DNA of 64,000 nucleotides from a virus: the IMG/VR virus record IMGVR_UViG_3300042541_003180, positions 1 through 64,000 of that record. One strand, given 5' to 3'. This document shows, piece after piece, positions 3,022-52,216 of the stretch. Each line of letters starts with the position of its first letter. Within the stretch, counting starts at the first letter, position 1. Both the position numbers and the translations under genes were made by a program. A model generated the notes under the pieces. The model saw only the letters and a program-made list of their open reading frames with translations, had not been told where the DNA came from and did no database searches.

Positions 3022-3717
3022 ATGAGATTTATACAAAAGTTTAAAATATTTGAATCTACACAAGATTTACCAGAAAAGGGTACTAAGTGGATCAATGATA
3101 AAGGTGAAAAGATATTTATATTGAGACCAGATCAATATGGTTATATTGGTTATTATAACTTATCCGATCCAGAATATAAGAGACATATTAGTCCAGAAAC
3201 ATTTTATAACGAGTATAAACCATTAGATAAACATATTTATAGAGACGATATTGAGTTTGATTTTGATAAAGCTACTTATTTATCAGATGAGAAAGCTATC
3301 ATTGCTGCTTATTTCATAACTAAAGAAAATGAAAAGTCTATTGAAATTCTAAATATAAAAGAATTTGCTGCTGATACGGCCACTTTTATGGATAATGCCA
3401 GACCTTATTCAGTTACTTTCCACAAAGGTACTTTACCGACTTCACAAATTGCTATTTTAGGAGAAGTTCCTGAAAAAGAAGGTTTCTTCTATGTTAAAGT
3501 TCCTTATTGGTTATACAAAGAAAACCCAGAGTTGAATATTAAAAGAATAGTTGGTGATTATCATCATATGAAAAGATTAGATCTTAGAGATTTTAGTTTA
3601 AGTAATAAAGAATTGATGTCTAATTTCAAAGATCCTAATGTAATTAAATACTTTGCTAGTTCTGATAAAGATAAGAGAACTCAACAACAAGTAATAAATT
3701 ACGGAAGACGTAGTTAA
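3022..3717 (+). CDS. Virion-type protein with N-terminal capsid-targeting-like peptide, 231 aa
   Basis: I start this gene at the ATG at 3022, giving MRFIQKFKIFESTQDLPE, because this restores the N-terminal peptide shared by about 20 proteins here; the longer frame from 2905 only adds non-coding upstream sequence. The LPE at residues 16-18 fits the (L/I)xE cleavage rule of T4 prohead protease. The rest (a beta-rich domain with WINDKGEKIFILRPDQYGYIGYY, then a helical C-terminus) is not recognised. It is predicted to be packaged in the head. It converges on the small gene 3714-3968 with a four-base overlap. Confidence 0.68.
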   Translation: MRFIQKFKIFESTQDLPEKGTKWINDKGEKIFILRPDQYGYIGYYNLSDPEYKRHISPETFYNEYKPLDKHIYRDDIEFDFDKATYLSDEKAIIAAYFITKENEKSIEILNIKEFAADTATFMDNARPYSVTFHKGTLPTSQIAILGEVPEKEGFFYVKVPYWLYKENPELNIKRIVGDYHHMKRLDLRDFSLSNKELMSNFKDPNVIKYFASSDKDKRTQQQVINYGRRS

Positions 3718-3968
3718 ATACCTAAATCATTTAATTTTTGATCTCTAATTTCTGAAACAAATAAACTATTAAAGGTTCCTTTTTCAGACCATACACGATC
3801 ATTTCTTGTATGAATTTTATTTTCAGTTTTTATAACACTATAGTAAATTTTAACCCAAGGTTTTCTTTCACTACTATAATCATCTATAACATTAATTATA
3901 ATTCTGTGATTTTTCTCAAGTTTAGTTAAATAATCTTTTACAATTATTTCTTTATTTTTTTCTGTCAT
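3714..3968 (-). CDS. Hypothetical protein, 84 aa, with C-terminal RDQKLNDLGI tail
   Basis: An unknown 84-residue protein. Its last residues, EIRDQKLNDLGI, are the clearest copy of the recurrent C-terminal tail. The central segment HRIIINVIDDYSSERKPWVKIYYSVIK looks like three beta strands. Its start overlaps the end of the dihydrofolate reductase gene by 17 bases, so the two are translated from one message. Confidence 0.62.
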   Translation of the reverse strand: MTEKNKEIIVKDYLTKLEKNHRIIINVIDDYSSERKPWVKIYYSVIKTENKIHTRNDRVWSEKGTFNSLFVSEIRDQKLNDLGI

Positions 3969-4434
3969 ATGTTAAGTAAGTAAAGTCATACTTATGTCTT
4001 TCATCTGATGGATGATATTCTTCTGAAACTAATTCCCATTCTTCACCAATTTCTGGAAAGAAAGTATCTGCTTCAAAATCTGAATGTACTCTTGTTAGTT
4101 CAATTCTATCTGCAATTCCCATAGATTGTTTATAGATTTCTCCACCACCAATTATCCAAATATCTTGATTGTCTGTAAAATCAATTGCTGATTGAATTGC
4201 ATCAAATACAAAACAATTTTCAGGTACTGAATAGTTATCTTGTCGAGTTATAATAAGGTGTTTTCTATTAGGTAGAGGTTTAGGGAACGTTTCAAACGTC
4301 TTTCTACCCATAAGTATATAATTACCTGATGTAAGTTCTTTAAATCTTTTAAAATCGTCTGGTAAGTGCCAAACTAAGTCATTGTCTTTACCTAAAGAAT
4401 TGTTTTCTCCGGCTGCTGCTATAATTGTTATCAT
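3952..4434 (-). CDS. folA: Dihydrofolate reductase
   Basis: A 160-residue dihydrofolate reductase of typical length. It reduces dihydrofolate to tetrahydrofolate with NADPH to support thymidylate synthesis during phage DNA replication. Visible landmarks are the N-terminal strand MITIIAAAGENNSLGKDNDLVWHLP with W..P, the catalytic acidic residue in LPDDFKRFK, the NADPH-binding GRKTFETFPKPLPNR, and WIIGGGEIYKQ with the GG of the second nucleotide-binding loop. Phages often carry folA. No thymidylate synthase is present in the window. It shares an operon with 3714-3968. Confidence 0.96.
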   Translation of the reverse strand: MITIIAAAGENNSLGKDNDLVWHLPDDFKRFKELTSGNYILMGRKTFETFPKPLPNRKHLIITRQDNYSVPENCFVFDAIQSAIDFTDNQDIWIIGGGEIYKQSMGIADRIELTRVHSDFEADTFFPEIGEEWELVSEEYHPSDERHKYDFTYLTYDRKK

Positions 4435-4463
4435 AAACTTTTTATGAAAAAAAATTAAAAAGT

Positions 4464-5861
4464 TTAACTACATTCATAACAAGAAACTCTACCGTCTCCC
4501 CCGCATTCTTGACATTCAGTTGTTCCATCTCCATCACATCTTGTACATTCTTCAAGTCCGCGACCACTACAATCATCACACTCTACTTTACAATTACCAT
4601 CGCATTTAGGACATTCTACTTGACCATCTTCACAATTATCACAAGGTATTTTACCAGAACCTTCACAATTATCACAAGATGAACCTTCAAACTCACCACT
4701 TGCATCACACTGAGGACAATCTATTTTAGCATAACCATCACACTGATTACAATCTACTGTTCCATCTCCATCACATCTACCACAATCATACTCACCATAC
4801 CCATCACACTCAGAACATTCTTGTTCTCCATTACCATCACATTTCCAACATCTGTATTCAGCAGAACCACCACAGTCTTCACATTCCCTGCTACCTGTAC
4901 CACCACATTCTGAGCAAGAACCATCACCACCTTCAGTATCAGTTAGTTCATATTCATATGAATCTGACCAGTTGTTTGTTAGTAAACTAGAGTGAGGAGT
5001 GTAATACTTTATCGTATCCATATAAGGATATTTACTAAAATCTCCACCGTGGTCTAAAGTAATATAAATCCAACTATCTTCTCTAGTTAATTCTTGTCCG
5101 TTAAACATAATTGGATCACCTGTTTGATAAGTTTGATTTTTCTTATAATAGAACCCATTATCGATTGCAAAATCTATAAATAGTTGAGTATCTGCAGAAT
5201 CTTGTATATAGATTCTGTCCATAAATTGTCTATCTTTGTTATCTAACCAAAGAAGAGCTCTACCGGTAATTTTAGTATCATCTGTTTTAGATTTTAAGAT
5301 TATTAAAGAACATCTTTCAGGATTACTAGAGTATATTTCTAAGAAGTCTCTACATTTTGAGTATCTCATACAAGAAGATCCTAATGTTCCCATTTCTCTT
5401 TCGTATTGACTATGATTATACCAATGTTTAATATCATTACCTTTAACTATTTCGAATCTTGTAAAAGCTTCTTTCTCAACTAAAATCGCGGCTTTATATT
5501 TATTTACAAAGTCTTCTAATTCTTTATTATCAACTTCACGACCGGCTTTAGTTAGAATTGCTCTTACAAATCTACCGACATTCATATCAGATTTTTTTAA
5601 TGTGTAAGGATCATCAACTTTTTTAGCTTTATCGTCTGGAATAAAGAAAACCTTATCTTCTTTTTCTAAATCAAATGTTATATAGTTATAGTTTGTATCA
5701 ACGTCTATACCATTTAACATTCTTAGATTTCTAGAAACAGGTGTATTTATTCTTTTAAGTAGGTTATTAAACTTGTCATCAAAAACAATTTTAGCTTCTA
5801 ACAACATTTGTATATCTTTTTCTAAAAGATACTCTTCGTATTTTGATAATTTATTCTTCAT
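4464..5861 (-). CDS. Capsid-targeting-like protein with 14 CxxC zinc-cluster units (paralogue 1 of 3)
   Basis: A 465-residue protein in three parts. The first is an N-terminal leader (MKNKLSKYEEYLLEKDIQMLLEAK) with LLE cleavage-like sites. The second is a central domain shared with 14736-16166 and 16220-17614, marked by GTLGSSCMRYSKC, a SLIILKS strand, GRALLWL and MDRIYIQD. The third is a C-terminal region of about 150 residues with 14 CxxC pairs and glycine/acid spacers, like an over-extended DnaJ-type zinc-binding repeat. DnaJ zinc clusters bind unfolded protein, but the function here is unknown. The central Ser-Cys-Met and GRA-LW layout recalls PcfJ-like phage or plasmid proteins; this is weak. 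I infer that it is packaged and possibly ejected. Confidence 0.68.
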   Translation of the reverse strand: MKNKLSKYEEYLLEKDIQMLLEAKIVFDDKFNNLLKRINTPVSRNLRMLNGIDVDTNYNYITFDLEKEDKVFFIPDDKAKKVDDPYTLKKSDMNVGRFVRAILTKAGREVDNKELEDFVNKYKAAILVEKEAFTRFEIVKGNDIKHWYNHSQYEREMGTLGSSCMRYSKCRDFLEIYSSNPERCSLIILKSKTDDTKITGRALLWLDNKDRQFMDRIYIQDSADTQLFIDFAIDNGFYYKKNQTYQTGDPIMFNGQELTREDSWIYITLDHGGDFSKYPYMDTIKYYTPHSSLLTNNWSDSYEYELTDTEGGDGSCSECGGTGSRECEDCGGSAEYRCWKCDGNGEQECSECDGYGEYDCGRCDGDGTVDCNQCDGYAKIDCPQCDASGEFEGSSCDNCEGSGKIPCDNCEDGQVECPKCDGNCKVECDDCSGRGLEECTRCDGDGTTECQECGGDGRVSCYECS

Positions 5862-5894
5862 ATTACTATATATTATTTTTTTGTGCTGAAAAAC

Positions 5895-5905
5895 TTAATA
5901 TATAC
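5895..5905 (+). promoter_or_regulatory. Phage-type TTAATATATAC element
   Basis: TTAATATATAC lies four bases before the ATG at 5910. It is a copy of the recurrent late-type element found before virion-type genes. Confidence 0.42.
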
Positions 5906-5909
5906 AAAT

Positions 5910-7511
5910 ATGAAATACTTAAAATTATTTGAAGAGATCGAACTTACTATAGGTGAGTTAGAAAAAGAAAGAGATGGTGAGGTACGTGGTAACAAGTTAG
6001 TTAAAAAACTAAAAGAAAGACCGGTAAAATTATCAATTAAAGGTAACGGTGAGAAAAATATAACTAAAGTAGAGGTAGATGGTAAAGAAGTTACACCTGC
6101 TGTTGCTGCTAAAGAAATTAGTACAAATGATAAGTATGATAAGGATAAGGGTAGAAAAGTATTTATTAAAAATAATAGATATGATGATGTTTTAATTTCT
6201 GGTAAAAAACACTTTAAACTTAATCAAGTAACAAAAACTCCGGAATTTGGTGCTGTTGGACCAGGTGTATTAACAAGACAATATGAAGCAATACAATGTT
6301 TATTTATAGCCTTTAAGTTAAGATATCCAGGTGAGATAGTAGATAAGGATAGAGTTATTGATTTTTGGGAAAAATATGTTAATAAAGATGATAAAGTTTT
6401 TAAAAGAATTGGTATTTATTTGGATCCTAAGTTTACTTTAACACGTGAAATGATAGATAGTTTATCAACTAATAGAGATTGGTTAAATACTTTCGTTAGA
6501 GTACCTGAACTTTTGATGAATTTTAAAGGTATTTTCCCTCGTGTTAATAATGCTAGAAAGTACTTAGTTTTCCTTGAGTCAAATAAGGATCCTATTTCAC
6601 CGGTTGTAAATATAGTCAAAAAGTATAATGAATTAAAGAAGATTGCTAAATCTTATGTTAATTTTTCTAAGTTTTGTCCAGCCGATGTTTATATTGTTAT
6701 TGAAAAATCTTTACCTACGATTAATAAAGAAATAAGTGCACAAACTTCTATTGAAGGTTTGGTTAAACTACTAGATCGTTATTTTGATAGTAATGAACTG
6801 ATACCGGTATCACTTAAAAAGCTTAATGAAGGTGATAGAGTTATTGTTAATAAAGAAAAAACAAAAAAACTACCAGATTTTACAATTGATAAATTTGTTA
6901 TAACTGATGATCCGTTAAAAGGAATTGCATCAAAACTAAAAGTTAAATCTGTTTGGATGTCAGAGACTCCTAATGGTGAAGAAGAGCCAGAACAACCATC
7001 GAGAGATATAATTTTTGACTCATCTGATACTGGTAAAGCTAGAAATATTGATGGTGATATTTTAGGAAGGTCTTCAAGACACGGTAAGATAGCATTAAAA
7101 TCAATTATTTCATTTTTTGAGAAGAATGGTTTTGTTGAACTATATGATTTAACACTTGATTTATATTCTAACCTAAGTACAAAGAGTGAAGATGAATTAA
7201 GAGAAATGATTTTATCTACACATAGTAATTTATTAGACTTAGTACCCGATATAACACAAGTACCAACAAGAACTAAAAGTGGTGGTGCTAATAAAATGTA
7301 TAGTGATTTGGTAGAAGGAAGTACGGTAAGTAATATTAAAAATAGATTAATATCCAAACTACAATCTCTTCAGTTATTAGTTGCGATTGCAACTATTCAA
7401 TCGGTAGAACCTACTGATGCAAATATAGCAATTACTGGTATTATGAGATATGCTCTTTCTATTCAAACAGAGCTTTTTAATGATACACCGAGATATTTAA
7501 GAATAATTTAA
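5910..7511 (+). CDS. Virion-type protein with capsid-targeting-like leader, 533 aa, CPADVYIV motif
   Basis: I choose the ATG at 5910 (MKYLKLFEEIELTIGELE) rather than the upstream GTG at 5883, because it restores the shared leader and its IGE site. The body is a large, globular, mixed alpha/beta protein. Residues about 255-262, CPADVYIV, resemble the (S/N/C)PADIWIV signature I associate with large uncharacterised phage virion proteins, but I cannot name a reaction. A basic segment (KSVWMSETPNGEEEPEQPSR) looks like a loop. It converges with 7508-7801, overlapping by four bases. It is likely packaged, perhaps as an enzyme. Confidence 0.66.
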   Translation: MKYLKLFEEIELTIGELEKERDGEVRGNKLVKKLKERPVKLSIKGNGEKNITKVEVDGKEVTPAVAAKEISTNDKYDKDKGRKVFIKNNRYDDVLISGKKHFKLNQVTKTPEFGAVGPGVLTRQYEAIQCLFIAFKLRYPGEIVDKDRVIDFWEKYVNKDDKVFKRIGIYLDPKFTLTREMIDSLSTNRDWLNTFVRVPELLMNFKGIFPRVNNARKYLVFLESNKDPISPVVNIVKKYNELKKIAKSYVNFSKFCPADVYIVIEKSLPTINKEISAQTSIEGLVKLLDRYFDSNELIPVSLKKLNEGDRVIVNKEKTKKLPDFTIDKFVITDDPLKGIASKLKVKSVWMSETPNGEEEPEQPSRDIIFDSSDTGKARNIDGDILGRSSRHGKIALKSIISFFEKNGFVELYDLTLDLYSNLSTKSEDELREMILSTHSNLLDLVPDITQVPTRTKSGGANKMYSDLVEGSTVSNIKNRLISKLQSLQLLVAIATIQSVEPTDANIAITGIMRYALSIQTELFNDTPRYLRII

Positions 7512-8033: not shown

Positions 8034-8243
8034 ATGAGGTACTTGAAAAGATTTAACGAAAATAAAGATGTATTCATGGAATACTTACTTGAGTTTACTG
8101 AGAACGGTAAGCCAGAAGAGCTATATAATACTAGATTAAGTAAATTACTTAGATTTGTAAGAATGGAAGGACTTAAAGATTACACAATATCAGGTCAAAC
8201 AAGTACTGGTGAATGGAAAATAATACTAAAAATAGGAAAATGA
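8034..8243 (+). CDS. Small virion-type protein with capsid-targeting-like leader, 69 aa
   Basis: A 69-residue protein starting MRYLKRFNENKDVFMEYLLEF, a close match to the recurrent leader, with LLE as the possible prohead-protease site. Only about 48 residues would remain after cleavage: a helix (NTRLSKLLRFVRMEGL) and two strands. T4 internal proteins are likewise small and basic after processing. A strong hairpin with T-run follows directly. Confidence 0.62.
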   Translation: MRYLKRFNENKDVFMEYLLEFTENGKPEELYNTRLSKLLRFVRMEGLKDYTISGQTSTGEWKIILKIGK

Positions 8244-9268: not shown

Positions 9269-9742
9269 TTAGTCTAAATGTCTAATATCTTTGTGTGAAG
9301 ATTTAGATTGATTCGAGTGTGACCATAATCTTGCAAATGGTGTAGTAAAGTAATCATTATAACATAAAGTATCATCAATATGAAGATTGATGTTATTTTC
9401 TTTACAATACTCTGCTTTGGTAGAATCCCATAAAACATCATCAAATTTTTTCTGAATAGTTCCATCTGGAAATTCTATTTCACCTAAGGTTTCTGCTGTT
9501 TTTAATAAGTGATCATAAACTGAGAATTTATGAGTATAGTTGATACCACTTAGTTGTTTTTCTAATTTTTCTGTCCATTCACCACCGGTTATAATGTGAA
9601 CTTCGCCATTATTTTTTATAACAGAGTCTGCTAAAAATACAAAGAACTCTGGAAGAGCATCGATTACTCCGTGTATATCGATACCTATTTTGAATTTTGC
9701 TGTTGAACTTTCGTTCACTATACTACTAAATTTTGTTATCAT
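9269..9742 (-). CDS. HAD-like phosphatase-type protein, 157 aa
   Basis: GIDIHGVIDALPEFF at residues 18-32 resembles HAD motif I, with Asp20 and a His in place of the second Asp. IITGGEW is like motif II, and HIDDTLCYNDYF near residue 126 is like motif IV. Substitution of the acid/base Asp suggests altered chemistry or a non-catalytic role. The start MITKFSSIVNESS loosely resembles the virion leader. A TTAATATATA element lies four bases upstream, so it may be a late, packaged member. The substrate is unknown. Confidence 0.62.
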   Translation of the reverse strand: MITKFSSIVNESSTAKFKIGIDIHGVIDALPEFFVFLADSVIKNNGEVHIITGGEWTEKLEKQLSGINYTHKFSVYDHLLKTAETLGEIEFPDGTIQKKFDDVLWDSTKAEYCKENNINLHIDDTLCYNDYFTTPFARLWSHSNQSKSSHKDIRHLD

Positions 9743-11696: not shown

Positions 11697-12212
11697 ATGA
11701 AATACATAAAATTATTTGAAGGTATAGTTCCTGCACATCAAAGTGGTTCAGATTATAGAACTAGAAACACTGATGAAACAGTAGATGTTACTACATTAGA
11801 CAAAATGTCATTAAGATCACCAGTATATCAAAAAGGTGAAATAATTATCTGGTCAGATAATGTAAAGAATAAAGATGTTGACTATGACTTTGCAGAGAAA
11901 TTACTAAGAAGAGTAGGTCTTAAATTGATAGGTGAACCTTATGATGGTGGATTTTTAGTAAAATGTGAACCAGGTAAAGAAGTAGAAAGTGCTAAAATGG
12001 CAATTTCTAGATTTCCTGAATTCTTTGATAGTTACGAAAGAGAGGATATAAGAATGCCTTTTATATCAAATAAAGTAGAAGAAATAAAGGATAAAGTTGA
12101 AGATATAGAAAGATTTTTTGAGAGTTCTATAAAAAGAAATGTAAATGTAACTAAATATAATAAGTATATTGATGATATTATTAAAGACCTTGATAATCTA
12201 AAAATAAAATAA
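11697..12212 (+). CDS. Virion-type protein with capsid-targeting-like leader, 171 aa
   Basis: It starts MKYIKLFEGIVPAHQ, a strong match to the shared leader, although I see no clear LxE or IxE in the first 20 residues; cleavage could be absent or at a variant site. The middle (DYDFAEKLLRRVGLKLIGEPYDGGFLVKCEPGKE) looks like a small alpha/beta domain. The C-terminus is a charged coiled coil (NKVEEIKDKVEDIERFFES). It is a single-gene unit ended by a strong hairpin. It is predicted to be packaged. Confidence 0.62.
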   Translation: MKYIKLFEGIVPAHQSGSDYRTRNTDETVDVTTLDKMSLRSPVYQKGEIIIWSDNVKNKDVDYDFAEKLLRRVGLKLIGEPYDGGFLVKCEPGKEVESAKMAISRFPEFFDSYEREDIRMPFISNKVEEIKDKVEDIERFFESSIKRNVNVTKYNKYIDDIIKDLDNLKIK

Positions 12213-13208: not shown

Positions 13209-13708
13209 AAAACAAATTATACTTATTTGATAAGTGGTTATCTAAAGATAGAAATACATTATTAATTCTATTATTTGTTGCTACCTCAACTATTATGATA
13301 CAATTTAAACCTTTTACCTTCTATGGTATTGGTTTACTTTCACTTATATGTTTCTATATAGTTTTTGTAAAAGCAAAGATTTTGGGTGGTCAGTGGAAAT
13401 TAGATAAATCAGTATATCATGTGCCACAAAAAGATGAAATTATAGTGACAACTAAAGACTTTTATTGGGATGGTTCATTAAAAAGTTATCATGTTCAAAG
13501 TCATACAAGTAAACCTAATACAGTTTTCATTGAGAAAGGTACAGAATTAAAAATTATACATCTAAAAGAAACCGATGATGATTGGTCTTTGATGTTAAAG
13601 AAAGGCAATGGTGAGATAATCATTACAGTAAATTATTTAGAGTCGAAAGATTACTATAAAACAAAGTCTCAAATAAGAGAAGATAAATTAAAGAAATTAT
13701 TAAAATAA
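13202..13708 (+). CDS. Membrane protein with SH3-like domain and C-terminal REDKLKKLLK tail, 168 aa
   Basis: I prefer the ATG at 13202 (MLKNKLYLFDKW), which overlaps the upstream stop as ATGTTAA, to the one at 13184. Two hydrophobic segments (about residues 20-35 and 45-60) are followed by a cytoplasmic or external beta domain containing DEIIVTTKDFYWDG, KGTELKIIHLKE and WSLMLKKGNGEIIITVN, which resembles a small SH3 barrel. The end, QIREDKLKKLLK, belongs to the recurrent tail family. This is the only clear membrane protein among tail carriers. Function unknown. Confidence 0.62.
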   Translation: MLKNKLYLFDKWLSKDRNTLLILLFVATSTIMIQFKPFTFYGIGLLSLICFYIVFVKAKILGGQWKLDKSVYHVPQKDEIIVTTKDFYWDGSLKSYHVQSHTSKPNTVFIEKGTELKIIHLKETDDDWSLMLKKGNGEIIITVNYLESKDYYKTKSQIREDKLKKLLK

Positions 13709-13714
13709 AATAAT

Positions 13715-14425
13715 ATGGTAAAATTACTACCCGCAACATTTAGATGGGTTCCTAAAGTAGATGATATAATTAAAATAGCAGGAATACATCCAAGTCGTGT
13801 ATTTAATGTTTATATTTTTGGTTCACAAGTATATGGTACTTATGATGCAAATTCTGACTGGGATATTATAATGGTAGCAAATAACTCGGTTGAAGCAGTT
13901 GAGTTAAATAAAACAGTTAAAGATGAATATTCATATAATTTACAAACTCGTAATATAAGATATAACATTCATGTTTATACACCAGATAGATTTCAAAAAG
14001 ATTTAGAGTGGCATCGTATGAATAACCTTGAATGTATCTTTGCACCAGAGTGGGCTATCTTAAAAGAAGATAAAAAATTTGATTTTCAGATAAACTTACC
14101 TAAGTTAAGACACGCAACTTCACACGTTAGTTCTAACTCATGGATAAAGTGTAAGAAAAAATTATTGATTGAAGGTGAGTATCGTACTGCGATAAAATCA
14201 TTCTTTCATTCAATTAGAATACCTATGTTTGCATCACAAATTGCACGAAGTGGTAAAATTACTGACTTTACTGCGGCTAATTTTATTTGGAATAGATTAA
14301 TATTTCAAGCATTACCTGCTTATCAAAGAAAGGATTCTAAATGGGATTGGAATTCTTTGAATCTAGAATTCAAAATAACATATAATCTTATGTTAAGTTT
14401 GTTCAGAAAAGTAACTACAAAATAA
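13715..14425 (+). CDS. Nucleotidyltransferase-fold protein, 236 aa
   Basis: Residues 30-52, YIFGSQVYGTYDANSDWDII, show the polymerase-beta-type nucleotidyltransferase signature GS(x)8SDxD, with the metal-binding acidic pair in SDWDI. A third acidic strand is likely at NIRYNIHVYT. The C-terminal half is helical and may be a substrate-binding or HEPN-like region (TAIKSFFHSIRIPMFASQIA). Such proteins transfer a nucleotide to RNA, protein or small molecules; the acceptor is unknown. The gene lies in one operon with its neighbours and overlaps the next gene by one base. Confidence 0.82.
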   Translation: MVKLLPATFRWVPKVDDIIKIAGIHPSRVFNVYIFGSQVYGTYDANSDWDIIMVANNSVEAVELNKTVKDEYSYNLQTRNIRYNIHVYTPDRFQKDLEWHRMNNLECIFAPEWAILKEDKKFDFQINLPKLRHATSHVSSNSWIKCKKKLLIEGEYRTAIKSFFHSIRIPMFASQIARSGKITDFTAANFIWNRLIFQALPAYQRKDSKWDWNSLNLEFKITYNLMLSLFRKVTTK

Positions 14426-14661
14426 TGGATGAAGAATTAGAGAAATTATATCAAGAGTTAATTAACAATCGAATAAATTATAGAGGTCAAGGTTTGGTAC
14501 AAGTTAGCCCACCACACCCACATCAAAATTTGATTGCTAATCCATTAATAGCTAATTATGATTTTACTTCTTTATATCCTTCTATTCAGAAGAGTTATTA
14601 TAAGATCAAACAAATTATTAGAAAAAGAAAAATACAAAGAATGTTTCAAAACCCATCTTAA
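14425..14661 (+). CDS. Small protein with a family-B polymerase motif A-like segment, 78 aa
   Basis: A 78-residue protein containing IANYDFTSLYPSIQKSY at about residues 43-59. This closely resembles motif A (DxxSLYPS) of family B DNA polymerases, where Asp binds metal and SLYP contacts the incoming nucleotide. Nothing else of a polymerase is present, so catalysis is impossible alone. It may be a mimic, a remnant or chance. A helical basic end (YYKIKQIIRKRKIQRMF) follows. The stop codon is inside a terminator hairpin. It is coupled to the nucleotidyltransferase gene by an ATGA-type overlap. Confidence 0.58.
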   Translation: MDEELEKLYQELINNRINYRGQGLVQVSPPHPHQNLIANPLIANYDFTSLYPSIQKSYYKIKQIIRKRKIQRMFQNPS

Positions 14662-14675
14662 TAGATGGGTTTTTT
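14648..14675 (+). terminator. Intrinsic terminator overlapping the stop of 14425-14661
   Basis: ACCCATCT-TAAT-AGATGGGT followed by a T-run. The TAA stop forms part of the loop. It ends the operon that starts at 12843. Confidence 0.85.
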
Positions 14676-14735
14676 ATTAAAGTTTGATTTTTGAGAATGA
14701 AATAATAATATATACTAAAAAATTATATTATAATA

Positions 14736-40703: not shown

Positions 40704-41233
40704 TGAGACATTTAAAGAATTATAAGTTATTTTTAGAAGCAGATGGTATAAGTATTCCAATTGAACAAACTGATCCAGTTGATATTAAGATGAATAAACA
40801 AAGTATGGAAACTCTTAGTAAACAACTAGCTGATTATAAAACTAAACGACCTCAAATTGATAATGTTTACAAAAACATTAAAGATTCAGTTCAATTAGAA
40901 AGAGAATTGGTTAGAATATTAGGAGATCAAGCAATTCAAAATGGTCCTGATAGAAATCCATTTCTTGTTGAATATTCAACTTTAGCTAGAATGCAAAGTG
41001 ATTTATTAAAAATGGAACAAGAAAATAAAAATTATCAAGAAGAGCTAAAATTATCTACTGATGCTACTACAAAACAAGCTGTTAATACAAAGATACAAGA
41101 GTTGGTACAGAAAGTTAATAAAACAAAGACTGATTTTACGTTCGCTGAGAAGAAGCACAAAGATAATTTAGCTAAAATTGAAAAGGATATGAAAGAAAAT
41201 ATCACAAAAATATCTAATGTTAATCAAAAATAG
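40703..41233 (+). CDS. Virion-type coiled-coil protein with capsid-targeting-like leader, 176 aa
   Basis: It starts MRHLKNYKLFLEADGISIPIE. FLE or IPIE could serve as cleavage point. The remainder is almost entirely coiled coil (QSMETLSKQLADYKTKRPQI and LVQKVNKTKTDFTFAEKKHK), rich in K and E like T4 gp22 or internal-core proteins. It is coupled to the 903-residue gene by a TAATG overlap. I infer it is part of the prohead core. Confidence 0.63.
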   Translation: MRHLKNYKLFLEADGISIPIEQTDPVDIKMNKQSMETLSKQLADYKTKRPQIDNVYKNIKDSVQLERELVRILGDQAIQNGPDRNPFLVEYSTLARMQSDLLKMEQENKNYQEELKLSTDATTKQAVNTKIQELVQKVNKTKTDFTFAEKKHKDNLAKIEKDMKENITKISNVNQK

Positions 41234-41292: not shown

Positions 41293-44200
41293 ATGGCAAT
41301 TCAAATTGGAAAATACAAAAGACCTGGTATCTTCATCGAAGAAATTGACAAGTCAGTATTCAGCACACCTACAGTAGAAGGAATAACTAACCTTATAATA
41401 GGAGTTTCTAAAAAAGGACCTGTTAATACACCGATTAGATTAACAACGGTTAACGACTTAGAAGCGGTTTATGGTCAATTAGATAGAAACTTGGAAAGAA
41501 AAGGATCTTTTTTCCACAGAACTGTTTCTAAAATGTTAGAATCATCTCCTGTTTTTGCGATGAACGTGTTATTAACGGATGATACATTAGATGTTATTGA
41601 GTATAAATCATTATCTTCTTCTGCACGTTATCTTAATGATATTAAAAGAGAAGGTCCTTATAGAAGATTCTTTGATACAACTGGTTTCTGGAAGAGAGAT
41701 ACTGAGGCTTTCATTAATCTAACAAAAAATAACTCTGGTTATGCAGAAAGAGCATTAAGCTTTACTAACTTATCAGACAGATACGTTACTGTATTTGCTG
41801 TTAAAACACAAGTTAGTGGATTTGATAGAACATTACTTGAATGGTATGGTTCTATTGAGAAACTACCACCTTATGTTAATGCTTCAGATTATGCATCTGA
41901 CTATATGGTTGACGTGGTTGTAATCGCAGGTGACTGGTCAGATTACAGAAACTTAGCTGTAGATAACAGATGGGGTCAATATTTTAATTCTGATGGTTTA
42001 ATTAAAGGTGAATTAAGAAACTTTGCAAATGATAGAAATGTTACTTTGTTAGCATATTACGAAGGATTATCATTAATTCCTTACTTTAGAGATTTAGAAG
42101 GAAGAAATATCTTTATTGAAACTACGATTAACAGAGGTACTGATACAACTGGTTTATATTGTGCATTCAATGCTGATTTAGTTGAAGAAGATTACTATAC
42201 AGGTTTAGTTGACCTTATCGGTGGTACTTTAATTGACTCTGCTAATCCATTAATAACACAACAAAAAGAAATTGATTTCTTATCATATAAAGAAACTATT
42301 ATTGAATCAGTTCCATTTACTGCAACTCCTTTGGATTTACCAGGGAACGTTGTTGCATTATTTGGTACAGTATCAAATAATAATAGTGGTTTAGAAGGTC
42401 AAATGCCACACGCTTTTGGTAATCCAAAAGAAACAGGTGTTGTTGTTCATCACTCTAATAGAACTGCTTGGTTTACAGAAGGTGCCGTAGTTGGTGTCAA
42501 TCTTGCTACTGGTGCTAATGTAGATACAGATGGACATTTTAATCATACAAAAACTGGTTCAGGTACATCATCTATATTAAATGTTAAATATACTTCAACT
42601 AACTTTATTGATAATGGATTTGATGTAAGTCCTTACGCTGTAATTGGTGGTCAGTATATTCCTGTTACATATGGTACATATTCATTTAATGTTAAATCTA
42701 CTGACTTTACATACTCTACGTCTGTAGCAACTTACTCAACAGTATTCACATTAAATACAAGTGGAGTTATCTCTAGTGTTACTAGTTATACACCAAATGT
42801 TAGACCAAGTGTATCAACATCTGATATAGTATTGGGTTATATTTCATATAATGTTATAAATGGTGGTTTCTCTGGAACGGCATCATTTCAAGAGATTACT
42901 ATTGCATCAGACCCTACACTAGAAGAATATGTTATTCCTGGTTATGGAGATGATGTATATTTCCAAGCAGGTACAACACCATACCAAGATTTAACTTATG
43001 GTACTAATTCAACAGTACATGATTATTATGTTTATGATTTAAGTAACGAGGTTGGTTATTCACAAGGTGATGTTAGATTGGTGTTCTGGGGAACAGCAGG
43101 ATCTGATGTTAAAAACTATGTACAGTTTAGAAAACTTAAAATGTTTAATAAAATTACTGAGTTTTTAGGTACTTATAAAGATCAAGCAACTATGATTATT
43201 AGTGTAGATGGTTCTGGTAAAGAAGTTAAGAAAAGTTTAGCTTCTATGACAGTTACTGAAGTAGTAACTTCTTCAACACAAAATAAATCTTTGGTATTAA
43301 AAACTGGATTATCAAATGTTTCTTATATCTCTGGTGCAAATGGTGGTGTATTTAAAATCTATAAAAACGATAATGAGTTTATTTTAGGTAGTGATAAATT
43401 ACGTACTAAAGATGAACCTGCAAATACTAATATTGGTGTTGTTGGTAAGTATTCAACTTTCTACCAAAAATACTTTAATGGTTTAATTAGTGATGGTGAT
43501 TATTTCTATGCAAATAGATTATTAACTACTGCAGATAAAGATACATTGAACGATGAGTTTGTAGATGGTGGTGGTAATTTTACAACTACTATAAATGTTA
43601 CATTTGTTAATGGTGAGGCAACTCCTGATCCTACAGTAATTAATATTACAAGTCCTTATGCAGGATATAACTATGTTGTATTTGAAACTCCAAGTGTCAG
43701 TGCTTCAACTGCAGTAAGTAATTTAGATTTACAAATTTTAGATCAAATTTTATTCCCTGTATCACTTAATAATACTACTTCATTAACAATACAACAAAAT
43801 AGTGTTAATTCTTCACAGGGTGCTGTTGCTTTAGCAACTGCTTTAGGGTTTACCGGTAGTAATTTCTTCGCATATGAGGTAGCAGAGAATGTTACTTACG
43901 AAGAATTAACAGGAGTTACTATGATGTATAATACATTAGAAAGTGCTGCAATGAAGTCTTATTTACAAATGTTTGTAGATTTAGATGGTTTATTAGAAGT
44001 TTCATTTACTAGTGATGATTTAATATCAATTAATTCAATTGAACCAGTTGCTAACTATACATTTAATGTTCAATCTGAATTAAGTAACTTAAAACAAACA
44101 CTTGAGATTGAATTACCTACTGGATATACTCAAGTACAAAACAAAATATTAGTTAATGCATCAAGATATAGTGAAGTAAAAGTTGGTGATTTCTTATTAG

Positions 44201-45459
44201 CAGATAATAGTGATTTCACTCCTGCATTAGGACAAACAAACCTAAGAAACTTAACAAGAATCTTGAGTAAAAGACAATATGCTGGTGATACTAGTTTAAC
44301 TGAGATTACTTGTGATGCTAAAATCTTAAAAACATCATATACTAATCCTCTAACTGGTTTATTAGATTATCAAACAACAAGATACTCAACAGTTGACCAA
44401 TATACAACGACATATAAAGGTATTTCTTTAAAAGGATTTAGAGTTAGACAAGCTTCTTTACCTGATGGTACTGAAACTAAACAAAATCAAATCTTAAACT
44501 TGATTGCAAAAGGAACACCATTGTTCAAAGCGTTAATTAATAAAGAAGCATTTGACTTTAGATATTTAGTTGACTCATTTGGTTTAGGTTTAACTGAAAG
44601 ATCAAAACAACAATTAGTAGATATTTGTGGTGAGAGATTGAATGTATTTGGTTTCATTAATATGCCATCATTAAAATCATTCAAAAACTCTTCATCTCCA
44701 AGTTTCGTAAACACAGAAGGAGTATTACAAGTAGATTTTATTGCTAAAGGTGGAGACCCAGAAAGTAATCCTGCATTCCTTTACTCATTCGGTGATGGAA
44801 ATGGAGTATCAACAGTTGGTTATTTCACTCCTTATGTAACAGTAAATGATAATGGTAGACCATTAGATTTTCCACCTGCTGCATATGTTGCGACAACTTA
44901 TATGAGAAAACATACTTCTATTGTAAGTAATATTACACCTTGGACAATTGCTGCTGGTGTTACAAATGGTAGAGTTACTAATATTGCTGGTGTTGAACAC
45001 GATTTCAACCCAACAGATATTGAGTTCTTAAACCAAGCACAAATGAACCCAATTGTATTGAAAAGAAACAGAGGATATGTAATTGAGACTGAGAATACTG
45101 CATTAACAATCTACAAATCAGCATTATCTTTAATCCACGTGAGAGAAGTATTAGTTGAGTTAGAAAGAGAACTTGCTGCAATGTTGCTTGATTACCAATG
45201 GAAGTTTAATACTCCTGATGTTAGAGCTGAAATTAAATTAAGAGCTGATGTTATTTGTGAAACTTATGTAAACAAAAATGGTTTATATAACTACTTCAAC
45301 AAAATGGATGACGAGAATAATACAGTTGATATTATCGATAGTCAAATTGGAGTTCTTGATACTTATGTAGAACCAATCAAAGGTATGGGTATCATTGTAA
45401 ACAATGTTACAATTTTAAGAACTGGTGCTATTGCAGCTGGTGGTTTCATCAACGCATAA
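41293..45459 (+). CDS. Tail sheath protein (contractile tail), 1388 aa
   Basis: N-terminal residues GIFIEEIDKSVFSTPTVEG and ITNLIIGVSKKGPVNTPIRL followed by DLEAVYGQL are the conserved opening of myovirus sheath proteins. The C-terminal 280 residues hold the conserved sheath core: PPAAYVATTYMRKH, AGVTNGRVTNIAG, LNQAQMNPIVLKRNRGYVIE and a final beta hairpin GMGIIVNNVTILRTG. At 1388 residues it is about twice T4 gp18, with a beta-rich central insertion (about residues 400-1000) that probably forms surface domains. It is a single-gene unit with a strong terminator. Confidence 0.95.
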   Translation: MAIQIGKYKRPGIFIEEIDKSVFSTPTVEGITNLIIGVSKKGPVNTPIRLTTVNDLEAVYGQLDRNLERKGSFFHRTVSKMLESSPVFAMNVLLTDDTLDVIEYKSLSSSARYLNDIKREGPYRRFFDTTGFWKRDTEAFINLTKNNSGYAERALSFTNLSDRYVTVFAVKTQVSGFDRTLLEWYGSIEKLPPYVNASDYASDYMVDVVVIAGDWSDYRNLAVDNRWGQYFNSDGLIKGELRNFANDRNVTLLAYYEGLSLIPYFRDLEGRNIFIETTINRGTDTTGLYCAFNADLVEEDYYTGLVDLIGGTLIDSANPLITQQKEIDFLSYKETIIESVPFTATPLDLPGNVVALFGTVSNNNSGLEGQMPHAFGNPKETGVVVHHSNRTAWFTEGAVVGVNLATGANVDTDGHFNHTKTGSGTSSILNVKYTSTNFIDNGFDVSPYAVIGGQYIPVTYGTYSFNVKSTDFTYSTSVATYSTVFTLNTSGVISSVTSYTPNVRPSVSTSDIVLGYISYNVINGGFSGTASFQEITIASDPTLEEYVIPGYGDDVYFQAGTTPYQDLTYGTNSTVHDYYVYDLSNEVGYSQGDVRLVFWGTAGSDVKNYVQFRKLKMFNKITEFLGTYKDQATMIISVDGSGKEVKKSLASMTVTEVVTSSTQNKSLVLKTGLSNVSYISGANGGVFKIYKNDNEFILGSDKLRTKDEPANTNIGVVGKYSTFYQKYFNGLISDGDYFYANRLLTTADKDTLNDEFVDGGGNFTTTINVTFVNGEATPDPTVINITSPYAGYNYVVFETPSVSASTAVSNLDLQILDQILFPVSLNNTTSLTIQQNSVNSSQGAVALATALGFTGSNFFAYEVAENVTYEELTGVTMMYNTLESAAMKSYLQMFVDLDGLLEVSFTSDDLISINSIEPVANYTFNVQSELSNLKQTLEIELPTGYTQVQNKILVNASRYSEVKVGDFLLADNSDFTPALGQTNLRNLTRILSKRQYAGDTSLTEITCDAKILKTSYTNPLTGLLDYQTTRYSTVDQYTTTYKGISLKGFRVRQASLPDGTETKQNQILNLIAKGTPLFKALINKEAFDFRYLVDSFGLGLTERSKQQLVDICGERLNVFGFINMPSLKSFKNSSSPSFVNTEGVLQVDFIAKGGDPESNPAFLYSFGDGNGVSTVGYFTPYVTVNDNGRPLDFPPAAYVATTYMRKHTSIVSNITPWTIAAGVTNGRVTNIAGVEHDFNPTDIEFLNQAQMNPIVLKRNRGYVIETENTALTIYKSALSLIHVREVLVELERELAAMLLDYQWKFNTPDVRAEIKLRADVICETYVNKNGLYNYFNKMDDENNTVDIIDSQIGVLDTYVEPIKGMGIIVNNVTILRTGAIAAGGFINA

Positions 45460-48920: not shown

Positions 48921-49679
48921 TTAAAATTTTATAAATAATACTTGTACTGGTATACCAAGTTGAAGAGCTATAGTAGACCTTTTGTGTCCTCCAATCAATC
49001 TATTATCATTACCTTGATTGTCCTTTAAGTTTATAACAAAGGGCGTGGGTAAAGATATTTTACCATTATTTTTAATCAAATCATCATAAGTTATTAAGTA
49101 TCGTTCAACATCTGCTTTAATTGGACAAGTAGGTAATGCACTTTTTAGTTCTTCAATACCTTTTATACCTTTATTTTTAACTTGAAAAGAACCTTTCCAT
49201 CCTCCCTTTCCAGATGTACTACCGAATATTTTTGTTAAATCTCCCATATTTCCGGTTGAATCAACATCTTTCCAAGTAACTACACTACATGATTTTATAA
49301 AATTTGATACTTCTTTTATACAAGTTGGATCACCGCCCTCTACAATACCATCTTTATCTGGAACACCAACTATATCCTTTTTAAATTCAATGTTTCCAAA
49401 TCCTAAACTTTCAGGATTTTTATTTAACAATAGTTTTTTAATTTCTTCCTTATCGGTTGTTTCTTTTTTAAGATAATTTTTTACTACATAATGAAAAACA
49501 CTAGGTATTTTAGCATAAACCCTATCAAAGTTATCTGGTTTAAAAAACAACTCCATATTATTTATCAACTCATGTAGTTCTGATAAAATTGTTTTATCAT
49601 CTGGTGTAACCCAATCGATTTCAAATTTCATCTCATTTTCATCTAGTATGAATGATTCATATACTTTTAAATACCTCAT
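48921..49679 (-). CDS. Virion-type protein with capsid-targeting-like leader and ParB-like C-terminal domain, 252 aa
   Basis: The leader MRYLKVYESFILDENEM has ILDE near residue 14. The C-terminal 70 residues contain SLPTPFVINLKDNQGNDNR and LIGGHKRSTIALQLGIPVQV, the ParB/Srx core (xGHxRxxAAxxLGxxxVPV) with nuclease-type GxHR variant GGHKR. Some ParB-like proteins bind or cut DNA or hydrolyse CTP. A copy packed in the head could act on DNA during or just after entry (inference). The gene heads the downstream part of a five-gene minus operon. Confidence 0.7.
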   Translation of the reverse strand: MRYLKVYESFILDENEMKFEIDWVTPDDKTILSELHELINNMELFFKPDNFDRVYAKIPSVFHYVVKNYLKKETTDKEEIKKLLLNKNPESLGFGNIEFKKDIVGVPDKDGIVEGGDPTCIKEVSNFIKSCSVVTWKDVDSTGNMGDLTKIFGSTSGKGGWKGSFQVKNKGIKGIEELKSALPTCPIKADVERYLITYDDLIKNNGKISLPTPFVINLKDNQGNDNRLIGGHKRSTIALQLGIPVQVLFIKF

Positions 49680-49936
49680 AATTTTTGTAATTTTATTTTC
49701 AAATCTCCAGTTCCTTTTATAACTCTGTGATAAACTCCCATTGGTATAAAAACTTCACCTTGAATAACTTTTGGTAATTCATCATCTAATTGTACTTGCC
49801 AATCTGTTTCACCAATAGATTCAATTATCCTATCTTCTCTATCTCTGTGCCATTGATAATCTCCAGAGTCAGTATTTTGTTTAAACTCTCTGATAAATAT
49901 ATTATCTGATATTATTTCTTCTTTAAACGGTAACAT
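49676..49936 (-). CDS. Cupin-like small protein, 86 aa
   Basis: YQWHRDREDRIIESIGETDW then LPKVIQGEVFIPMGVYHRVI suggests a compact jelly-roll: His and acidic residues on one strand, and PMGVYHRV on the closing strand, as in cupins or small dioxygenase folds. Metal binding by His29, Asp/Glu and His74-like positions is plausible. It overlaps both neighbours by one to four bases. The substrate is unknown. Confidence 0.62.
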   Translation of the reverse strand: MLPFKEEIISDNIFIREFKQNTDSGDYQWHRDREDRIIESIGETDWQVQLDDELPKVIQGEVFIPMGVYHRVIKGTGDLKIKLQKL

Positions 49937-50520
49937 TATAAAATCTTATTAATTTTTTCAATTGAGGATTCATCAAATATTGCCACATTTTTAGAACCTC
50001 TTTCTGCAACCATAAATCCATCATATCCTTTTGACTTTATTTGATTGATAATTGGATCACATTCTATTATTTGCCAAGAACCATTCTTTATTAGCCAAAG
50101 ATAGTTATAAACAGTTTGTGAAAAATCTTCTAAATCAAATTCCTTTTCGGTATCATAATCAAATCCTTTGAATCCTTTACCTCTATTTGCTATAAATTTT
50201 TTACCATTTGTAGGATCTTCATATTTATCATCTATCATTTTTTGTAATATTGATTTAAGTTCTAACTCTTTCATAGTCTTTACTTGCATCGGATCACATA
50301 TTTTTAGATTTGACTTTATTTTTATTTCCCAAACGGCTCCTTCTGGAAATTGTTCTCTTTCATCGAATCCTGCAAAGTTTTTTGCAAAGTCTAAATTACT
50401 TGTTAAAAATATAGCACCTGCAAATCTTTTTCTCTTTGGTGGAAAATCTCCTTTTCTATTACCATGATATAACTTTTCTTCTATAGATTCAAATATTTTG
50501 TATTCTTTTAAGTATTTCAT
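49936..50520 (-). CDS. ADP-ribosyltransferase-like protein with capsid-targeting-like leader, 194 aa
   Basis: The leader MKYLKEYKIFESIEEK is followed directly by LYHGNRKGD (His19), like strand 1 of H-Y-E type ADP-ribosyltransferases. GAIFLTSNLDFAKNFAG resembles the STS/aromatic region, and the end KGYDGFMVAERGSKNVAIFD resembles the last strand with the catalytic acidic or Q position. This pattern occurs in ART-type domains of phage polyvalent proteins. T4 Alt is a packaged ADP-ribosyltransferase with a cleaved leader that modifies host RNA polymerase; this may be an analogue. Catalytic residues cannot be proven by reading. Confidence 0.65.
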   Translation of the reverse strand: MKYLKEYKIFESIEEKLYHGNRKGDFPPKRKRFAGAIFLTSNLDFAKNFAGFDEREQFPEGAVWEIKIKSNLKICDPMQVKTMKELELKSILQKMIDDKYEDPTNGKKFIANRGKGFKGFDYDTEKEFDLEDFSQTVYNYLWLIKNGSWQIIECDPIINQIKSKGYDGFMVAERGSKNVAIFDESSIEKINKIL

Positions 50521-50524
50521 TCTA

Positions 50525-51622
50525 TTATGTTATTTTTATTGCATCAAGCTTTGGTTTTACTATCATATAGATACCCACAGATATTACCAATGTGTCTAAT
50601 ACATTTAGTATTGAACCAACGTATGGTATTTTCATAACTGCGGCTTTTATACCTTTTGTAATATCTTCTCCATTAAATCCTACCATTTTCCAAACTTCAT
50701 CCATCGATTTATCTTGTATTGAGTTAGTTAGTTCATCAAAACCACTTGCCTTTGAGACAAAATCTTTAAATTTATTTATACTACCTAAAACTTTATAAAA
50801 AATATATAACTCTAATATTTGAAATAGAAATACGAAAGATTTTCCAAATCTACTCATAGATTCTGATTTACCTGTTGTCAACCAACAAAAAAATTTATCC
50901 ATTAGTTGTGATAGTTTACTTATTCCTTGTTTCATTAAATCCTCGATTTTTGGAATCCAATTAAATGGTGGATAAGTCATTATTTTCTCACCTAATCTTT
51001 GTAAAAATGATTTTTTTTCTTCTTCACCATTATCCTCTAATAAAAAATTATCATCTAAATAAATAAGTCCTTCATTAGTTCCTAAGTTTAATACACCTGA
51101 AAATGTTTCTGATAATCTAGTCACTAAATCTGTTATAATTTGACCTGATGCTATATATTTTAGTAGTTCTGATATACTCGTTATATAAGATTTTAGTTTA
51201 ATTAGTTTTTTATTTTCTATAAATTCGATTAGTGGTTCTATAAATCCACTATCTTTTAACGCATGTTCTTTTATTTTCTGTTCCATTGATAAAAATTGTG
51301 TCTTAACATAATTACCAATTTGTCCTGCTAGTGATTTTGCAAAATCTAATACATCTTTTGCTTTTTTTGCTAAATCAACTAATAGTTCACCTGCTTTAGA
51401 TTTTACTGCTAAAACTCCTCTCTTACCTTTATCTACTAAATCAGAAAACCAGGATTCATTTATCATACCATAGTTAGAGTCTATTAGTATTTTCTCATTT
51501 ATAGTTAAATGACTTTCATATAATGAATTGAATATCATAGTAAAGTTAGATATATCATTACTATCAATACCCTCTAATATATTTACTTCTGAAAAATTCT
51601 CGTATGTCTTTAAGTATCTCAT
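50525..51622 (-). CDS. Virion-type membrane-segment protein with capsid-targeting-like leader, 365 aa
   Basis: The leader MRYLKTYENFSEVNILEG has ILE at residues 15-17. Amphipathic helices (VKSKAGELLVDLAKKAKDVL) follow. Hydrophobic helices occur near residues 265-290 (FVFLFQILELYIFYKVLG) and at the C-terminus (VGSILNVLDTLVISVGIYMIV). It resembles 33353 and 23789 in combining packaging leader and membrane segments. Ejected proteins that build a channel, as in podoviruses, would have such features (inference). Confidence 0.65.
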   Translation of the reverse strand: MRYLKTYENFSEVNILEGIDSNDISNFTMIFNSLYESHLTINEKILIDSNYGMINESWFSDLVDKGKRGVLAVKSKAGELLVDLAKKAKDVLDFAKSLAGQIGNYVKTQFLSMEQKIKEHALKDSGFIEPLIEFIENKKLIKLKSYITSISELLKYIASGQIITDLVTRLSETFSGVLNLGTNEGLIYLDDNFLLEDNGEEEKKSFLQRLGEKIMTYPPFNWIPKIEDLMKQGISKLSQLMDKFFCWLTTGKSESMSRFGKSFVFLFQILELYIFYKVLGSINKFKDFVSKASGFDELTNSIQDKSMDEVWKMVGFNGEDITKGIKAAVMKIPYVGSILNVLDTLVISVGIYMIVKPKLDAIKIT

Positions 51623-51637
51623 ATTATTATAAATTTT

Positions 51638-52216
51638 TTACCAGAAGCCGGGGTACGTACGTCCACCCCACAGATGTCCGTATTTATTTATTCTGCATGC
51701 CCAATAACCTGCAGTAGTTTTATCTTTCTTAGTATCACACTTATGTCTTGCTGCAAATGATTTTCTTGCTTTAGGATCACTTACCTTAGCAGTTAGACCA
51801 CCATGAACATCTCCAAAGGCAATCTTTTTAACATTTCCAGTTTTAGGATTTCTAACATAAACATGGTATTTCTTAGTACCACCTCTCATAGGTTTATTCA
51901 ACTCTACTTCTCTACCTTTGTATTCTGCTTCGTTTAATTCTTCAATAGTTTCCATTGGTAAATCTAAAGGAACTATTTGACCTTCATATTCGGCAAATCG
52001 ACCTATATCAGTTGATTCAAATAATTCGGTATCTAATTCAGATAATTCGATTTGATTTGCATCAAATAATTGTCTTGCTTCTTTAATTAGGTTAAAGTAT
52101 TGATTAGATCCAGGTCTAAATACATTTTCAACAATAGGTTTATTATTATCGATGTGATATTGTAGATTTTCTGATATTCTACCAGAGAATGATTCAAATA
52201 GTTTTAAGTACTTCAT
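51638..52216 (-). CDS. Virion-type protein with capsid-targeting-like leader and conserved phage C-terminal domain, 192 aa
   Basis: The leader MKYLKLFESFSGRISEN, the best consensus copy, has ISE at residues 14-16. The last 80 residues (KKYHVYVRNPKTGNVKKIAF, FAARHKCDTKKDKTTAGYWA, and CRINKYGHLWGG) form a domain I recall from many marine T4-like phages, with one Cys pair and a basic, aromatic end; its function is undescribed. A TTAATATATAC element lies about 20 bases upstream. It heads the five-gene minus operon. Confidence 0.7.
   Translation of the reverse strand: MKYLKLFESFSGRISENLQYHIDNNKPIVENVFRPGSNQYFNLIKEARQLFDANQIELSELDTELFESTDIGRFAEYEGQIVPLDLPMETIEELNEAEYKGREVELNKPMRGGTKKYHVYVRNPKTGNVKKIAFGDVHGGLTAKVSDPKARKSFAARHKCDTKKDKTTAGYWACRINKYGHLWGGRTYPGFW

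Follow-up and report, generated by a model that had tools for sequence, protein, structure and literature searches.

Why do some twenty genes in one stretch of viral DNA, encoding mostly unrelated proteins, begin with variants of the same short peptide? The stretch (the window) comprises bases 1–64000 of the 85,311-base IMG/VR record IMGVR_UViG_3300042541_003180, a fragment from a bacterial virus. An initial annotation had listed 20 gene starts with variants of MKYLKxFESF, and had read this leader as a capsid-targeting label like that of T4 internal proteins. All 20 starts are present where it placed them, with the N-termini it gave. We conclude that the leader is real, is a feature of the proteins, is modular and is similar to the T4 capsid-targeting sequence (CTS). 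We consider it very probable that it is a CTS of the T4 type in a megaphage.

A shared leader in the window and five relatives

The 1388-residue tail sheath of the window is 59, 56, 42, 50 and 39% identical, over 58–100% of its length, to the sheaths of five public huge-phage records, respectively W01 (LR745206, 634,780 bases), W02 (LR756502, 642,428), W03 (LR756501, 735,411), W04 (LR756504, 636,363) and W05 (LR756500, 462,018). W01 to W04 are alike in size to the four largest complete genomes of 'Clades of huge phages' (634, 636, 642 and 735 kb; PMC7162821), which were assigned there to the Mahaphage clade and predicted to have Bacteroidetes hosts. A term-based search of that paper gave no hits for internal or capsid-targeted proteins.

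Open reading frames (ORFs) with an ATG start and at least 50 codons were called in the record of the window and in the five relatives, and their N-termini were scored with two models. The type-A model covers 10 positions, MKYLKxFExF, and was trained on other genomes only, so that the genome being scored was held out. The type-B model describes a T4-like core, [YF]xx[FY][IL]xE, and was trained on the N-termini of W03. For starts in the window, p values came from 3000 shuffles of each gene's own N-terminus. Unsupervised motif discovery on the N-termini by expectation-maximisation drifted to a general lysine-rich start in most genomes, and the held-out models were used instead.

Fifteen of the listed starts pass the type-A model (3022, 5910, 8034, 11697, 28616, 33928, 35226, 36772, 37272, 37992, 40703, 49679, 50520, 51622 and 52216), with scores of 7.7–23 and p ≤ 0.0007 for each. 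Three more (14736, 16220 and 9742) are called by the type-B model (scores 10.4–10.6, p 0.0003–0.0013), so that 18 of the 20 pass. The two borderline starts are 24463 (type-A 5.1, p 0.005) and 5861 (type-B 5.0, p 0.04); the latter is kept as a carrier because its protein is 46% identical to that of 16220. The ATG at 3022 lies within a longer frame (upstream starts: ATG at 2932, TTG at 2905).

Across the record of the window, 20 of 107 ORFs are type-A carriers, compared to 0.0 expected after shuffling residues 2–17 of the same proteins, and four further ORFs pass the type-B model. Seven carriers lie beyond the window, at record positions 64040, 70294 (− strand), 75447, 77150, 78927, 79554 and 81421 (− strand). 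Type-A carriers number 95 of 921 ORFs in W01, 122 of 959 in W02, 39 of 912 in W04 and 28 of 667 in W05, where shuffling gives 0.0–0.3 per genome. In W03, leaders of the MKYLK form are almost absent, and 56 starts have a T4-like [YF]xxFINE(A/S) form, compared to about 2.7 expected with a model trained on W03 itself. A strict regular expression matched 153 of 4,569 ORF starts and only 10 of 16,702 internal methionines. The profile search that the initial annotation had proposed, over the whole record and related phages, thus finds carriers in all six records, with about 35–150 in each relative (5–16% of ORFs).

The two leader forms are joined by mixed leaders (MKYIKDYNDFINEA and MKHLKRFKTFINES) and are, as far as their sequences tell, one family. 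Similar bodies can retain a leader while its form differs. The bodies of W01 363366 (MIIKKYIKFINEEFDHLKSRGVDPERTYFVHD) and W02 385173 (MKYLRTYEGFDHLSERGIDPKRTYFVHD) are 84% identical while their leaders differ, and W01 145881, with a type-A leader, is 60% identical to W02 63708, with a type-B leader. The W01 homolog (268303) of the window gene at 9269–9742 starts with MISKFSDMVNENISSKFKLGIDVHG, while a W04 homolog with the same body is leaderless and starts with MNKSFKLGIDWHG. Among reciprocal best hits between W01 and W02, the leader is on both proteins in 36 pairs, on one in 21 and on neither in 370 (p 1.6e-33). Between W01 and W03 the corresponding numbers are 6, 8 and 149 (p 1e-6), with several changes from form A to form B.

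Carrier genes also have an upstream signature of their own. Within 120 bp upstream, TAATATATA occurs in 42–50% of carriers compared to 9–17% of other genes in W01, W02, W04 and the record of the window (p 5e-3 to 9e-15). In W01 and W02, 108 of 260 carriers and 102 of 1153 other genes have an ATWTATA box 11–13 bp ahead of the ATG, and similar boxes are found 28–58 bp upstream of several structural genes. In the same two genomes TATATTTG, which we take to resemble the −7 element of a Bacteroidetes host, is upstream of only 1 of 260 carriers, compared to 108 of 1158 other genes. The T4 late promoter TATAAATA was not enriched upstream of carriers; the enriched box was TTAATATATA. The two upstream classes, TTAATATATA and TATATTTG, may represent phage-specific and host-type promoters, with very short 5' leaders on transcripts of the former class. 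This signature would fit, without proving, late expression alongside the head genes.

T4 determinants, the head protease and its array

In the T4 IPIII leader, MKTYQEFIAE|A, residues 4 and 7 set targeting, and residues 8 and 10 set processing (PMC9026906). The megaphage core [YF]xx[FY][IL]xE has the spacings of these determinants, and the aromatic pair [YF]xx[FY/I] is found in both leader forms. The arrangement is that of the T4 IPII and IPIII CTS, processed by gp21 (Mullaney and Black; PMC9026906): an aromatic pair three residues apart, then [IL]xE followed by A, S or N. The model trained only on W03 ranked IPIII and IPII third and fourth of the 274 ORFs of T4, and its best site in gp23 was the processing site, FGSFLTE|A.

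A search for a gp21-like protease, also suggested by the initial annotation, succeeded in all of the relatives and failed in the window's own 85-kb record. The Pfam family Peptidase_S77 (gp21) matches ORFs in W01–W05 and in Lak-C1 (E 1e-4 to 3e-16, two of them above the curated cut-off), with the catalytic His (GEFDHP; GE[FL][DN]HP) and Ser (VSSRAAG; SSR[AG]) motifs conserved in W01–W05 and aligned to those of T4 gp21. Pfam Gp23 matches in W01–W05 (E 1e-22 to 1e-34) and also in Lak-C1, and the Peptidase_S77 and Gp23 genes are close neighbours in W01–W05. In this pairing of a gp21-family protease gene with a gp23-family gene, in the variable bodies behind the leader and in a capsid protein whose predicted site is similar, the megaphages again resemble T4.

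At the end of its N-terminus, the capsid protein has a conserved H-x-[ILM]-x-E|N in W01–W04 and ELYE in W05, which we predict to be the cleavage site; 56 IMG/VR copies have H[SA]INE|NA at this predicted site. In the small proteins W01 93266, W02 80294 and W03 730457, a leader runs directly into a mature capsid N-arm, with the junction at the predicted cleavage site. A CTS-tagged mini-protein of this type, with a capsid arm, seems to exist in T4 as well: a 54-residue ORF in KJ477685 (L335:18952-19116, − strand) starts with MKTFKEFIKE and aligns to gp23 across the processing site with no gaps (E 1e-6). Two leader-like starts, W01 202508 and 204294, lie beside the capsid gene; the first belongs to an NFACT-R (RqcH-type) protein (202508–202897; L036:2508-2894, + strand) that adjoins it.

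At 632–807 residues, the S77 ORFs of the relatives are far longer than T4 gp21 (212 residues). In W01–W04, about ten to twelve tandem 14-residue units (LDKNIAYSEYIAEN) follow the protease domain, and 73 homologous IMG/VR ORFs have 10–14 units. The units show the leader core (Y-S-E-Y-I-A-E-N). The leader model trained on W03, which had never seen the protease, finds 7–9 sites per S77 ORF in W01–W04 compared to 0.2 expected, at a threshold reached by 0.03% of other residues. The T4 arrangement differs, as gp21 and gp22 are separate proteins, whereas the megaphage protease is fused to a leader-like tandem array. The simplest reading would be a protease fused to a scaffold, with the leader as one detached scaffold unit, which would explain both docking and cutting. 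IMG/VR contig 3300028027_000090 contains both a protease-scaffold gene and a 79% identical homolog of the window's 50520 gene. W01 also encodes a stand-alone 83-residue protein (460435–460686, − strand) that is largely made of YSEYISE scaffold-type units.

Where would such a protease cut the carriers? The initial annotation had most leaders followed within 30 residues by (L/I)xE. This held only in part: the motif is modestly enriched, occurring in 53% of type-A carriers compared to 34% after shuffling of residues 11–30 and 27.5% of non-carriers. The broader pattern [ILVMF]xE is enriched only at residues 8–13 of type-A carriers (21% vs 3% for patterns ending at residue 11) and is near background beyond. 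The leader has several subforms, KIFE[SA], [YF]NE[SN] and FEx[FY]. For the T4-like and the KIFES/YNES forms, processing directly behind the leader is clearly predicted. We judge it reasonably likely that the S77 protease removes the leader from most carriers.

The capsid-targeting label of the initial annotation is supported by the held-out enrichment, the match to the CTS determinants and the blind recovery of the T4 proteins, and further by the gp21-family protease near a gp23-family gene, the swapping of leaders and the separate upstream signature.

Cargo, delivery and competing explanations

Grouped by body, the 476 carriers of the six records give 371 families, of which 308 have a single member. 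The earlier description of the bodies as unrelated is thus mostly right, although some are paralogous, such as those of 4464–5861 (− strand), 14736 and 16220 in the window. Most carriers have no known domain. The domains found are an Acb1-like 2H phosphoesterase (an anti-CBASS family), T4-type RNA ligase, polynucleotide 3'-phosphatase, NUDIX, PPK2, SET, GNAT, methyltransferases, lysozyme, SLT transglycosylase, M15 peptidase, LRR repeats and one glutamyl-tRNA synthetase. The Acb1-like proteins, with T4-like leaders, are in W01 (L048:8260-9573, − strand) and W02 (L142:13776-14312, − strand), and their sequences suggest that anti-CBASS activity is delivered with the DNA. That many carriers are delivered into the host seems to us somewhat more probable than the opposite.

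Three observations concern single relatives. The glutamyl-tRNA synthetase of W04 (263081–264682, + strand) has an N-terminal extension resembling the leader, while its W01 homolog has no extension. W05 (462 kb) has six copies of LRR proteins with the leader, for example at 13446–15077 and 180972–181730. W02 has a dense cluster of small leader proteins (about 150 residues) at about 10–62 kb, many with a recurring 'DILLELxDDGFxVxV' body, apparently a large expansion of paralogs.

The strongest alternative is that the leader proteins are assembly or structural factors that dock in the prohead core and are kept there or degraded, with few delivered effectors among them. Some T4 internal proteins have assembly roles (PMC9026906), and in our phages carriers lie beside head and tail genes (37992 and 40703), mini capsid-arm proteins exist and leader-like starts adjoin the capsid gene (W01 202508 and 204294). 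A repertoire as variable as that described above, and rich in host-relevant enzymes (Acb1-like, RNA ligase, NUDIX, SET, methyltransferase, PPK2 and lysozyme), speaks against this explanation, which we regard as possible but unlikely. The initial annotation expected the window alone to supply a very large set of packaged effectors; many tagged proteins are indeed present, but 'effector' stays a putative term because the 37992 and 40703 proteins may be structural head proteins.

Alternatively, the leader could direct proteins to another phage-made compartment or to a membrane, such as a replication compartment or an injection complex, rather than to the capsid. A conserved N-terminal peptide on many bodies is compatible with any sorting system, and jumbo phages of another group import proteins into a phage nucleus. 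The pattern of the leader, however, is that of the T4 CTS determinants and led to T4 IPII and IPIII blind; its core recurs in the scaffold-protease array, and the junction between leaders and capsid N-arms is at the predicted cleavage site. The leader is missing from unmistakable replication proteins of the window's record. Proteins found leaderless there are DHFR, NusA, terminase, sheath, topoisomerase, clamp loader, cytosine methylase and ClpS. The initial annotation had named DHFR and NusA as enzymes on which a leader would contradict it, and both are without one. Another destination is therefore improbable.

Still less credible is a role in expression, with an AT-rich, lysine-rich start aiding translation behind a short 5' leader. 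The N-termini of phage proteins are lysine-rich in general, and the TTAATATATA box at 11–13 bp from the ATG is common to leader genes. This box is missing upstream of many carriers, however, and what is conserved is a set of aromatic, Ile and Glu residues with fixed spacing, in a lineage form that can be MKYLKxFExF or IKKYxxFINE for the same bodies. Synonymous codon choice within the leaders follows genome usage, so selection acts on the protein, and a downstream-box or codon explanation was ruled out on this basis. Descent from a single gene family whose bodies have diverged would account for the true paralog groups (the 440-residue family and the small DDGF-type proteins of W02) but is barely tenable given the different body folds (NUDIX, SET, RNA ligase, LRR, lysozyme and others), the exchange of leader types on 60–84% identical bodies and the existence of leaderless homologs.

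We therefore favour capsid targeting, and propose that it would work as follows. The mature body of each carrier would be cargo of arbitrary kind. As the prohead assembles, the aromatic pair of the leader ([YF]xx[FY/I]) would dock into the core, which the gp21-like protease probably forms with its own C-terminal array of 14-residue units. The protease would then cut after (I/L/M)xE in the capsid protein (...H-S-I-N-E|N-A), in the scaffold array and in leaders with a site at residues 8–13. Cargo would thereby be freed inside the head and delivered together with the DNA, and many cargoes may act early against the host. The proposal in full, in which the protease is fused to a targeting-peptide scaffold of 10–14 copies, 5–16% of proteins bear one copy of the unit as a removable tag and the head injects tens to more than 100 different proteins ahead of all phage gene expression, including RNA-repair, anti-CBASS-like and nucleotide enzymes, we hold to be evenly balanced between right and wrong.

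Several observations weigh against capsid targeting and delivery. The commonest leader form in the window, FExF, has no immediate (I/L)xE, so its processing may be later or absent; in T4, targeting is possible without processing (PMC9026906). Some ordinarily intracellular enzymes (RNA ligase, PPK2 and one glutamyl-tRNA synthetase) have the leader. The array units of W05 are diverged and, although of the same period, form no clear array, and the protease ORF of Lak-C1 has an acidic linker in place of an array. Among the 274 ORFs of T4, the model trained on W03 missed IPI and Alt. TAATATATA is not enriched upstream of carriers in W03 or W05. The record of the window is a fragment without head genes, and the protease and capsid evidence comes from its relatives. 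Packaging, cleavage and injection are what we infer for these uncultured phages.

How does this compare to known systems? The kind of system is known from T4, while, as far as we have searched the literature, its scale, lineage form and fused scaffold array have not been described. T4 has a handful of carriers per phage, compared to several hundred over our six records. The megaphages have the extended lineage form MKYLKx[FY]ExF and a distinct upstream box, and among their cargoes are RNA ligase, NUDIX and Acb1-like proteins, none of them known as packaged in T4. The giant phages phiKZ and SPN3US also process many head proteins after xxE and deliver them (PMC5694885, PMC7411985), but their propeptides are mostly of more than 100 residues and are not one shared label of 10–15 residues. 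P1 carries anti-defence proteins in its head, the antirestriction proteins DarA and Hdf (PMC12810830), but these are few.

Most megaphage proteins have no assigned function. With the tag, hundreds of genes that were anonymous can be predicted to encode injected proteins, and phage factors that would act within the first minutes after infection could be picked out by a simple filter on whole genomes. Should the docking partner be the scaffold array, it would hint at the binding partner of the T4 CTS in the core, and at a purpose of large heads other than storing the genome. Under the full proposal, the megaphage head would be a general-purpose compartment for protein delivery, and the repertoire of tagged proteins suggests a large kit of ready-made proteins delivered along with the DNA.

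Leader genes of the window

The first leader gene of the window, at 3022–3717 (+ strand), has the KIFES form (MRFIQKFKIFES; type-A 14.8, p<0.001). It is followed by the leaderless DHFR gene (3952–4434, − strand; Pfam E 8.4e-57), which served as a negative control, as did the leaderless NusA gene (21015–22247, + strand; Pfam E 2.1e-24). The gene at 5910–7511 (+ strand) starts with MKYLKLFEEI (type-A 19.2) and has a body of unknown function (phrog_1462, E 1.6e-9); the TTAATATATA box upstream of it (5895–5904, + strand) is an example of the type enriched upstream of carriers. The YNE form is represented by MRYLKRFNEN at 8034–8243 (+ strand; type-A 7.7, p 0.0007). The gene at 9269–9742 (− strand) has the T4-like leader MITKFSSIVNE (type-B 10.4, p 0.0003) and a phrog_13623 body (E 1.4e-20) that appears HAD-like by motif. 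MKYIKLFEGI starts the gene at 11697–12212 (+ strand; type-A 15.1).

Three genes belong to a paralogous 440-residue family that has dozens of copies across five genomes, some of them leaderless. Two have T4-like leaders and are on the + strand, at 14736–16166 (MLKKYIDFITES; type-B 10.6, p 0.0003) and 16220–17614 (MITNYYDYITES; type-B 10.4, p 0.0013), the second with a DnaJ/BSD2-type zinc-finger tail and, as read from the sequence, an upstream TTAATATATA box (16206–16215, + strand). The third, the borderline carrier at 4464–5861 (− strand; type-B 5.0, p 0.04), encodes a 465-residue protein with a diverged T4-like leader (MKNKLSKYEEYLLE) and C-terminal CxxCxGxG zinc-finger repeats. An AF2 model of the 16220 family (pLDDT 76.9) gave the zinc-finger tail as its best PDB match in Foldseek (BSD2, E 1.5e-3), and its core was weakly GNAT-like.

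The other borderline leader, MNKLKKYNDFLILE, is at 23789–24463 (− strand; type-A 5.1, p 0.005). At 28050–28616 (− strand) the leader is MKHVKAFEKF (type-A 15.3), and the W01 and W02 orthologs are also leadered. Beyond the leaderless T4-type large terminase (30500–32647, − strand; Pfam E 1.3e-20) there are four more leader genes on the − strand: 33353–33928 (MKNIKTFESFSQGEEINE; type-A 20.1), 34807–35226 (MKYIKKYNED; 8.8), 36197–36772 (MKYLQTHEGF; 15.3) and 36775–37272 (MKNLKLYENF; 19.1).

Two genes upstream of the sheath, at 37992–40703 (+ strand), a 903-residue protein starts with MRYLNKREDF (type-A 10.0), and its leader is also found in the W02 relative (797 residues). The gene adjoining the sheath (40703–41233, + strand; MRHLKNYKLFLEAD, type-A 18.3) has a weak match to a head-protein PHROG and a leader that is conserved in W01 and W02. 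A Gp23 match at 65636 of the record was rejected, as it runs across a stop, and hence gives no capsid gene.

The last four leader genes are all on the − strand. MRYLKVYESF starts the gene at 48921–49679 (type-A 15.2) and MKYLKEYKIFES that at 49936–50520 (22.3), where the leader is present in 8 of 8 aligned homologs. By eye the 50520 body is like an ADP-ribosyltransferase; this reading was not adopted, with no PHROG, Pfam or credible PDB match and a poor AF2 model (pLDDT 54). A nicotinamidase reading of the 78927 protein of the record ('VVDVQKSF') was likewise not adopted, with no Pfam match. The gene at 50525–51622 starts with MRYLKTYENF (type-A 23.0) and that at 51638–52216 with MKYLKLFESF (22.8), the latter with a phrog_7595 body (E 1.7e-13). 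The tail sheath that ties the record to the huge phages (41293–45459, + strand) is leaderless and, at 1388 residues, is about twice the usual size.

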